A stretch of 38,062 nucleotides of DNA, taken from positions 1-38,062 of the forward strand of contig JAGXFI010000169.1 of NCBI GenBank assembly GCA_024637305.1, in the 5' to 3' direction. Each line of letters starts with the position of its first letter. The stretch's first letter is position 1. Below the pieces are notes generated by a model. It made no database searches. It saw nothing but the letters and a program-made list of their open reading frames with translations, and was not told the origin of the DNA. This stretch comes from Sulfitobacter sp. Lineage in GTDB: Bacteria; Pseudomonadota; Alphaproteobacteria; Rhodobacterales; Rhodobacteraceae. The position numbers and the translations under genes were made by a program. Below are positions 24,726 through 35,546 of this stretch, piece after piece.

Positions 24726-25313
24726 CTATTCGGCAGGCACGGCGTGGCCACCGGTACGCAGTGACATCGGCAGGGCGAAAGCGATGACGACCAGCAAGGC
24801 TCCCAGAACGATGCCGATCACATCGCCAGACATCGCCGTCAGGCCGTCGTAAGGTGCGCCTGGAACTGTGCCGATCGTAACCTTGCCTCCCGCCAGATCC
24901 TCCAGCATGCCTGACGCCTTCCATGCGGGATAGGTCACCATGTAAGCTGCCGCCCCAAACAGACCACCCGCGATGAAAAAGAGCGCATCCTTGCGGCCGG
25001 ATGCTGCCGCGCAGACACCTGTTCCGGGGCAATAGCCGGACATGGCCCAACCGGTGCCGAGCAACAGTCCGCCGATAAAGACGCCGATATAGGCTGCCTT
25101 GACCGACATATGGCCCACATCGACAAGGCCGAGCATCTGACCGCCAAACATCAGAATGGAACCAGTGCCGATCGCCAGAAGGATGGTTTTCATCAGGTGC
25201 AGGTTCGTGACGTTCAGCATCCGCCCGATCAGGCTGGGGTTCGTAGCCCCCACACGGTCAAGCGTGGCACCGAAAGCGGCCCCGATGATGATTGCGAGTA
25301 TGATGGAAGTCAT
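24726..25313 (-). CDS. YeeE/YedE-family sulfur transport protein (half 2)
   Basis: This 195-aa membrane protein has about five hydrophobic helices and the conserved cysteine segment SGYCPGTGVCAAASGRKDALFF typical of the YeeE/YedE (PF04143) family. Full-length YeeE moves thiosulfate through a channel lined with cysteines. In many proteobacteria the protein is split in two, as here. The pair is sometimes called PmpA/PmpB and is linked to sulfide, polysulfide or sulfane sulfur handling. It starts three bases after the stop of the other half, so the two should be made together. The promoter at 25886-25940 points to sulfur- and oxygen-responsive control. Confidence 0.9.
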   Translation of the reverse strand: MTSIILAIIIGAAFGATLDRVGATNPSLIGRMLNVTNLHLMKTILLAIGTGSILMFGGQMLGLVDVGHMSVKAAYIGVFIGGLLLGTGWAMSGYCPGTGVCAAASGRKDALFFIAGGLFGAAAYMVTYPAWKASGMLEDLAGGKVTIGTVPGAPYDGLTAMSGDVIGIVLGALLVVIAFALPMSLRTGGHAVPAE

Positions 25314-25316
25314 GGC

Positions 25317-25865
25317 TCAAGCCTCCTTGTACATGAAGATTGCGACCGGGATCGCCGCAGCGAATGCGCCGGCGGCGAAGATGTAGCCGGAGAGCGCGGT
25401 TTGCATCATGCCCGACATCATATGTCCCGAAGTGCAGCCGCCCGCCAGCCGGGCACCGTAAAGCACGATAAACCCACCGATGAATGCGACCGCGTAACGC
25501 TTTGCCGTGCCGTCCCCGACGGTGTTGCGCCATAGTTCAGGGATGCTGCGTTCCTCGCGGGACAGTCCGCCGCGTGCGAAAACGGACAGGGCCGCTCCTG
25601 CCATCATCGCCAGAACGAAGACAAAGCTGTAGTTCCAAGGCTCGGCGACCGATTCTGCATACTTGCCGCCGGATTTGGCCAGATAGGCATTTGTCGAAGT
25701 AAAGCCATCGTCCGTCGCGGTCACGACATCCGGGTTGATAGCGTTCCAGAGTATCCCGTCCAGAATGACAAACTGTGTCGAGACCCCGATTGGTTTGACC
25801 AGCGCCACCGCGAGGAAGAACACCAGCCCCAGCAGCACGCCTCCGTATTTCCAGTTCAGTGCCAT
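25317..25865 (-). CDS. YeeE/YedE-family sulfur transport protein (half 1)
   Basis: This 182-aa membrane protein has hydrophobic helices starting with YGGVLLGLVFFLAVALV and the family motif GARLAGGCTSGHMMSGMMQ with its conserved cysteine. A periplasmic-looking loop of about 60 residues (WNAINPDVVTATDDGFTSTN) lies between the first and second helices. It is the first gene of the two-gene unit, with AAAGGA before the start at 25865. It probably forms one channel with the downstream half for a reduced sulfur species. The substrate (thiosulfate, sulfide or persulfide carrier) cannot be read from the sequence. No sulfide oxidoreductase or ArsR-type regulator gene is adjacent in this window. Confidence 0.9.
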   Translation of the reverse strand: MALNWKYGGVLLGLVFFLAVALVKPIGVSTQFVILDGILWNAINPDVVTATDDGFTSTNAYLAKSGGKYAESVAEPWNYSFVFVLAMMAGAALSVFARGGLSREERSIPELWRNTVGDGTAKRYAVAFIGGFIVLYGARLAGGCTSGHMMSGMMQTALSGYIFAAGAFAAAIPVAIFMYKEA

Positions 25866-25885
25866 GATTCGATCCTTTCAATCAC

Positions 25886-25901
25886 ATTCTATTATATGAA
25901 T
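25886..25901 (-). promoter_or_regulatory. ATTC-N8-GAAT operator over a TATAAT -10 element
   Basis: ATTCTATTATATGAAT fits ATTC-N8-GAAT, the pattern described for the sulfide/persulfide-responsive repressor SqrR (BigR family) of Rhodobacter. On the minus strand it encloses a perfect TATAAT (25896 to 25891). A repressor here would block RNA polymerase at the YeeE/YedE operon. The repressor gene is not in the window. Confidence 0.6.
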
Positions 25902-25926
25902 ATAATTGATTTAAGCACCGCGCTCC

Positions 25927-25940
25927 TTGACCCAGATCAA
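25927..25940. promoter_or_regulatory. FNR/CRP-type box
   Basis: TTGACCCAGATCAA matches the FNR consensus TTGAT-N4-ATCAA at nine of ten defined positions. It lies 61 bases before the YeeE/YedE start, centred about 49-50 bases upstream of the start site predicted from the TATAAT. The likely -35 region is poor, which suits activation by an FnrL/Dnr-type regulator. It could instead serve the divergent desaturase gene. Confidence 0.55.
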
Positions 25941-26110
25941 ATACTAGCTACTTCGAAGGTAAGGAAATGGCTGGGCCGTCGCTGGTCGAGGCAGAAAATG
26001 ACGCACCCCACTGGGTGATGAAAACAACATGTTAACTCGAGTGGCTTTAAGCATTGTTTGGCGGGCGCTTTCGTTTATCAAGATCGCCAACAACGAAAAT
26101 AAGCAGGCAC

Positions 26111-27142
26111 ATGGCACACAAAACCTCAGAAGATCGGGAAATCCCCGAAATCAGCAACGCGCGCGATTGGGTAAAGATCCTGTCCAACTACCGCGAACCA
26201 AGCGCGCTACGCAGCTCGTTCGAGCTTGCCGTCACCTTGGGACCATTCTTGGCGCTCTGGGCTTTGGCTTGGTGGGCGCTTTCGATCAGTGGGTGGCTGG
26301 CGCTTGCGATCTCGCTTTGCAACGCGGGATTTTTGCTGCGTTTGTTCGCCATCCAACATGATTGCGGACACAGTGCGTTCTTCAAGAACCGCGTGATGAG
26401 CGACTGGTTGGGGCGCTGCATCGGCGTTCTCACGCTTACGCCCTATGACGTCTGGCGGCGCACCCATTCGATGCATCACAGTTCGTCAGGCAATCTGGGA
26501 CGTCGGGGGATGGGGGATGTCTGTACCCTGACCCTCGAGGAGTATCAGCAGCTCACGCCGTTGGGGCGTCTGGGCTACCGGTTGTACCGGCATCCGATCG
26601 TCCTGTTTGGGCTTGGTCCGGGATACCTGTTTTTCCTCCAGAACCGGATACCGCTGGGGTTGATGGAAAAGACGAGATATTGGGTCAGCGCGATGGGTAC
26701 TAATGTGGCGATTTTCGCCGTGCTGATGGCTATTTTGTACTTTGGCGGTATCATGCCGATCTTGCTGATATTCCTGCCCTCAACCCTGCTGGCGGCAACC
26801 GCCGGGGTCTGGTTGTTTTACGTACAGCATCAGTTTGAAACGACACATTGGGCGGAGGATGAGGACTGGAACCTGCATGACGCTGCGCTGAAAGGCAGTT
26901 CCCATTATGTGTTGCCAGCCGCTTTGCAATGGATCAGCGCCAATATCGGCATCCATCATGTTCACCACCTCTATAGCCGAATCCCATTCTACCGGCTGCC
27001 GGAAGTGCTGCGTGATCATGCGGTGCTGGCCGACGGGAACCGCATGACCATTCGCGAAAGCTTTGCCAATGCGCGGTTGCACCTGTGGGACCCGCGAACG
27101 AAACGTCTGCTGTCCTTTGAACAGGCGAACGCGACAGCGTAA
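26111..27142 (+). CDS. Fatty acid desaturase (membrane di-iron)
   Basis: This 343-aa membrane protein carries the three histidine boxes of acyl-lipid desaturases: HDCGH near residue 85, HSMHH near 121, and HHVHH near 291. Hydrophobic segments surround them. It should introduce a double bond into membrane acyl chains with O2. The ORF track begins at 26054, but MAHKTSEDRE at 26111 is the sensible N-terminus. The ribosome site is weak (AAGCAGGCAC). It is divergent from the sulfur-permease operon, sharing a 245-base gap with the FNR-like box. Regiospecificity cannot be read from sequence. The 3' end is followed by the convergent TerB-like gene after 13 bases. Confidence 0.92.
   Translation: MAHKTSEDREIPEISNARDWVKILSNYREPSALRSSFELAVTLGPFLALWALAWWALSISGWLALAISLCNAGFLLRLFAIQHDCGHSAFFKNRVMSDWLGRCIGVLTLTPYDVWRRTHSMHHSSSGNLGRRGMGDVCTLTLEEYQQLTPLGRLGYRLYRHPIVLFGLGPGYLFFLQNRIPLGLMEKTRYWVSAMGTNVAIFAVLMAILYFGGIMPILLIFLPSTLLAATAGVWLFYVQHQFETTHWAEDEDWNLHDAALKGSSHYVLPAALQWISANIGIHHVHHLYSRIPFYRLPEVLRDHAVLADGNRMTIRESFANARLHLWDPRTKRLLSFEQANATA

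Positions 27143-33341: not shown

Positions 33342-35546
<2,205 letters not shown>

Follow-up and report, generated by a model that had tools for sequence, protein, structure and literature searches.

The YeeE/YedE gene pair

The window analysed here, which is a stretch of 38,062 nucleotides from Sulfitobacter sp., carries on its minus strand two short, adjacent genes, a yeeE-like gene (25317–25865, 182 aa) and a yedE-like gene (24726–25313, 195 aa), which together make up the unit served by the promoter described below. The product of the first (P0001) is PmpA-like, has a cysteine in a GGCTSGH motif, and aligns to positions 177–308 of the 310 of the Pfam profile Sulf_transp, which is the C-terminal half; the product of the second (P0002) is PmpB-like, has the cysteines of an SGYCPGTGVC motif, and aligns to positions 8–130, which is the N-terminal half of Sulf_transp/DUF6691. 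This splitting of YeeE into a C-terminal and an N-terminal half is the arrangement reported for PmpA and PmpB (PMC11582611), although these proteins, at around 130 aa, are shorter than the two found here. With its conserved cysteines, the pair can be classed among the half-size PmpAB-type pairs and would, by homology, be a PmpAB-like two-gene operon for the import of a sulfur species. The divergent gene on the plus strand (26054–27142), which encodes a fatty-acid desaturase, likely lies outside the unit since, in relatives where the neighbours are different, the pair of sites described below stays with the yeeE gene.

Two sites upstream of yeeE

The features that the earlier note had pointed out are all present upstream of yeeE: an ATTC-N8-GAAT core, ATTCTATTATATGAAT, at 25886–25901, which encloses a perfect TATAAT on the minus strand (25896–25891); a poor −35; and an FNR-like box, TTGACCCAGATCAA, at 25927–25940 (TTGATCTGGGTCAA on the minus strand), which matches TTGAT-N4-ATCAA at 9 of 10 positions and has its centre between 25933 and 25934. 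The core has the half-sites of the published SqrR site (PMC9774250). On its own, it proves nothing, because shuffling the window gives 0.94 copies on average (at least one copy in 69 of 100 shuffles, as against the one observed) and because the 35 copies in the whole genome are near the density given by these shuffles; the genome-wide count was therefore dropped as evidence. The FNR-type box is rarer, with two in the window against 0.13 expected. The second, TTGATCCCGATCAA, lies at 33949–33962 and matches the consensus at 10 of 10 positions.

The case for the sites comes from relatives. In a first set, taken from 47 other genomes of the order and made up of the regions upstream of the orthologous first genes, a perfect core occurs in 28 (shuffle mean, 0.27) and an FNR-type box matching at 9 or more of 10 positions in 24 (shuffle mean, 0.47). 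The addition of 80 named loci and the removal of duplicates gave a second set of 110 unique regions besides the window, among which 72 have a perfect core, 87 a core matching at 7 or more of 8 positions, 80 an FNR-type box matching at 8 or more of 10 (to be set beside a shuffle level of about 5 in the 47-genome subset), and 67 both elements. From the centre of the box to ATTC, 37 cases have a distance of 30, and 9 have the 32 seen in the window; another peak, at 5 (26 cases), is due to an additional operator lying 25 bp upstream. When the regions were thinned for similarity to 33, hardly any conservation was seen in the DNA separating the elements (0.26 bits per base, 32% pairwise identity). 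These 33 regions had been selected for having a box and a core, so independent evidence comes only from the columns that were not counted in the selection, and in these, the conservation is high in the flanks of the operator and low in the N8. The conserved operator is thus longer than the core of the earlier note and takes the form of a 24-bp palindrome, TYAYATTC-N8-GAATRTRA, a consensus taken from the relatives, which in the window is TTATATTC-ATATAATA-GAATGTGA at 25882–25905, and this is the single zero-mismatch copy in the genome. Matches to the extended motif on contigs C75 and C57, considered as further targets, were ruled out, both being inside long open reading frames. Judged by their conservation across relatives, which makes ATTC-N8-GAAT credible, the two sites are real, and the fact that both recur, with constant spacing, in many related species suggests a joint reading of reduced sulfur and low oxygen.

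The candidate activator

The genome encodes an FNR-type regulator with cluster-binding cysteines, FnrL (L078, 240 aa), which has the FNR-like motif CX2CX7CX2C at its N-terminus. Sites bound by FnrL in R. sphaeroides in ChIP experiments, such as TTGACgcagATCAA and TTGATtcagGTCAA, are of the same form as the box in the window (PMC2908626). Another possibility is that the architecture is the same but that the activator is a nitric oxide sensor of the Dnr/NnrR type, or several Crp/Fnr proteins, in which case the signal would be nitric oxide or denitrification and not oxygen alone. Twelve Crp/Fnr-type HTH matches in the genome exceed the family cut-off, and the boxes for FNR and Dnr are indistinguishable by sequence (PMC5398030); however, the likeness to the ChIP sites and the fact that FnrL is the member with the FNR-like cysteine motif favour FnrL, so that a nitric oxide sensor, though a serious candidate, is unlikely to be the activator here.

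The candidate repressor

The repressor and the sulfide oxidation genes are indeed, as had been remarked, not adjacent to the pair: the only SqrR-like gene found, and the genome's sole match to SqrR at E ≤ 1e-15, encodes a 130-aa ArsR protein and lies on contig C44, within a sox cluster (L020:4642–5034). This protein matches R. capsulatus SqrR with E = 2e-38 and has the cysteine pair (ILC and LFC) expected of a cognate dithiol ArsR repressor, a pair that is absent from the three other ArsR genes found in the genome. Its neighbours are a SoxX-type cytochrome c, SoxY, SoxZ, a thioredoxin, a CcdA-type protein, and SoxT, on the basis of which it is identified as SoxR. The core motif is also present between the soxW- and soxX-type genes of this genome, and among 20 soxR loci from relatives, 19 contain it (139 kb with 20 sites, where the genome density would predict about 1.3). 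In relatives, linkage of a repressor gene to yeeE was ruled out, the retrieved yeeE loci containing no SoxR-like match.

The presence of the operator follows that of the repressor. Among 47 named genomes carrying the gene, with the operator scored as present at 7 or more of 8 positions, a SqrR/SoxR homologue is found in every one of the 34 genomes that have the operator and in 6 of the 13 that do not (Fisher p = 3e-5), a value that overstates the independence of the genomes because, of the 7 with neither operator nor repressor, 3 are close relatives and several are metagenome assemblies. Across the order as a whole, the presence of a SqrR homologue is uninformative, since 347 of 395 genomes have one. 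The operator is kept in genomes where the SoxR type is the sole homologue detected, namely L140, L143, L193, L206, and the genome of the window.

These observations bear on a further alternative, which is that the palindrome is bound by a repressor from outside the SqrR/SoxR family or by a SqrR paralogue that escaped detection. The flanks of the operator at yeeE (TYAY/RTRA) are unlike those at sox (often NNAA/TTNT), so a different repressor is possible in some species, and many relatives have a second SqrR-like paralogue with no sulfur genes beside it; this paralogue was not detected in the genome of the window, where the assembly, being 91.9% complete, could have missed it. Against this alternative are the tracking of SqrR/SoxR homologues by the operator, its retention where only the SoxR type is detected, and the lack of the dithiol pair in the other three ArsR proteins, all of which make it improbable. 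The repressor is, on these sequence comparisons, most likely the SoxR of the unlinked sox cluster, acting in trans. Of the proposal that the regulator is a persulfide sensor of the SqrR/BigR type responding to sulfide, the sensor type is thus retained, with SoxR as its best representative, whereas sulfide as the specific signal is not: with SoxR as the repressor, the signal is likely thiosulfate-derived or other sulfane sulfur.

Three observations can be added. Many Ruegeria-type genomes (L220, L221, L224, and L225) have a second, orphan dithiol ArsR that shares about 60% identity with SoxR. Elsewhere in the genome of the window, ATTCTAATAATAGAAT (L022:2944–2959; G000:C145:6943–6958), which has another PmpAB-like pair on one side and a metallo-beta-lactamase/SoxT-type cluster on the other, is likely to be a further target of SoxR. 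Finally, ATTCATTTTTATGAAT (L021:3006–3021; G000:C66:4505–4520), which precedes an apparent RND membrane-fusion gene by around 20 bp, is a possible further target.

Promoter geometry

The earlier note had taken the TATAAT within the palindrome (25891–25896, minus strand) as the −10 and had placed the FNR box at −49/−50. In the relatives, the conserved hexamer is a different one, TATATT or GATATT, which in the window is the TATATT at 25904–25899 on the minus strand, overlapping the upstream (left) arm of the operator. Among 77 primary operators, the left-arm hexamer is TATATT, the commonest, in 17 and GATATT in 10. At position −1 of the left arm, T is preferred over C by 51 to 20, whereas the figures for the right arm are 29 to 44, and this asymmetry of the arms toward the −10 consensus (p = 1e-4), which a homodimer alone would not explain, argues for an overlapping −10 at the left arm. 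A promoter search found no sigma-70-type promoter at the TATATT site, and there is no good −35 before it. Since this TATATT begins 22 bp after the end of the box, the centre of the box would lie at around −41.5, and transcription would start near 25892 (25890–25894, minus strand); the commoner spacing between box and operator in the relatives would place the centre of the box at around −39.5. Sites for FnrL/Dnr are found at −39.5 and −41.5 from the starts mapped by RNA-seq in Dinoroseobacter shibae (PMC5398030). The conserved −10 is, therefore, probably the TATATT that overlaps the left arm, with the FNR box in a class II position at about −41.5: a 9/10 box, a poor −35, and a distance of 22 bp to TATATT are what a class II FNR-dependent promoter would have, given the predicted start, while the lie of the ATTC-N8-GAAT core near the −10 and the start is that of a SqrR/SoxR/BigR-type operator.

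The other geometry, with TATAAT as the −10, a start near 25884, and the box at about −49.5, has in its favour that this hexamer is a perfect consensus present in the window and that the promoter could work with two overlapping −10 elements. However, TATAAT is found in only 4 of the 110 relatives (counted within their 120-bp upstream regions) and is missing from 106, the N8 is unconserved, and −49.5 would be unusual for FNR where TATATT gives −41.5. As a feature of the family, the interior TATAAT was ruled out, and for the window itself, this geometry is improbable. Of the regulation originally envisaged, the logic (SqrR/BigR-type repression in trans and FNR-type activation) is strongly supported by the conservation of the sites, the presence of genes for both regulators, and the co-occurrence of operator and repressor, but the promoter geometry is not. 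That the palindrome is an AT-rich product of chance with no function is hardly credible since, although a match to the core alone is expected about once in the window, conservation with a fixed spacing extends over tens of diverged promoters.

A proposed mechanism and its relation to known systems

Taken together, the evidence points, with a probability that we put at about 0.7, to a class II promoter of the FnrL type, with SoxR as its repressor in trans and sulfane sulfur as the signal that lifts the repression. An activator of the FNR family, most likely FnrL, would bind TTGATCTGGGTCAA at about −41.5 and would make up for the missing −35 by class II activation, while an ArsR dimer of the SqrR/SoxR type would bind the 24-bp palindrome over the −10 and the start (about −13 to +11) and so block RNA polymerase. 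Sulfane sulfur bridging the cysteine pair of SoxR would cause the repressor to let go of its operator, a ligand response carried over from studies of SqrR, SoxR, and YgaV (PMC9774250, PMC10451225). Expression of the operon would then be highest at low oxygen in the presence of sulfane sulfur derived from thiosulfate, polysulfide, or sulfide. With the unlinked SoxR as the most likely repressor in this genome, the importer would belong to the sox regulon.

The components of such a system are known. The operator of Rhodobacter capsulatus SqrR has the same core and overlaps the polymerase site, as does that of YgaV at ygaVP (PMC9774250), whereas here the palindrome is extended to 24 bp, is accompanied by an FNR box, and in some relatives occurs in tandem, 25 bp apart. 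In Acinetobacter, BigR represses yeeE-yedE-pdo2, and in Acinetobacter and Serratia alike, YeeE/YedE genes are under a dithiol ArsR repressor (PMC7315123); the pair here differs in being without a linked gene for a repressor or a persulfide dioxygenase and in having an FNR-type box in addition. The SoxR regulon of Hyphomicrobium, Paracoccus, and Pseudaminobacter likewise has SoxR in a sox cluster with soxT and a sulfane-sulfur-responsive repression (PMC10451225, PMC12423496, PMC11582611) that includes YeeE-type transporters, whose control by SoxR is thus already known (PMC12423496). The target here, in contrast, is an unlinked half-size pair, and it speaks against the SoxR reading that pmpAB in Hyphomicrobium do not respond to thiosulfate (PMC11582611). 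Finally, the class II promoters of FnrL in Rhodobacterales have the same box sequence and its placement at −39.5/−41.5 (PMC5398030, PMC2908626), but here the operator of a sulfur-responsive repressor would in addition lie over the −10. A literature search, confined mostly to papers available without subscription, found no report that joins YeeE and FnrL.

Whether this arrangement amounts to a two-input module in tens of Rhodobacteraceae species is, in our estimate, an evenly balanced question. In such a module, FnrL-type activation at low oxygen and SoxR/SqrR derepression would act on a single −10 region and would put a PmpAB-like importer unlinked to sox into the sox regulon, so that additional import of sulfur would be limited to times when sulfur is present but oxygen scarce. 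If true, this would be a compact, testable link between the sensing of oxygen and that of reduced sulfur in a dominant group of marine bacteria, and it would name an unlinked member of the SoxR regulon, with an extended operator consensus that helps to find others. Little is known about what half-size YeeE pairs do, and the promoter would tell when the cell wants this one.

Distribution and setting of the pair

Although the first gene of the pair has orthologs in 47 other genomes of the order, it is absent from all 16 of the same-genus genomes listed, because of which it has probably been gained or lost sporadically. In many relatives (L155:1–8543 and other loci), the pair lies inside a carbon-monoxide-dehydrogenase-like cluster in the order MoxR, VWA/CoxE, the pair, XdhC-like, CoxS, and CoxL (genes named by eye from the sequence); in the window, it stands alone, without such a cluster. 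A role for the pair in the supply of sulfur to molybdenum enzymes is conceivable.
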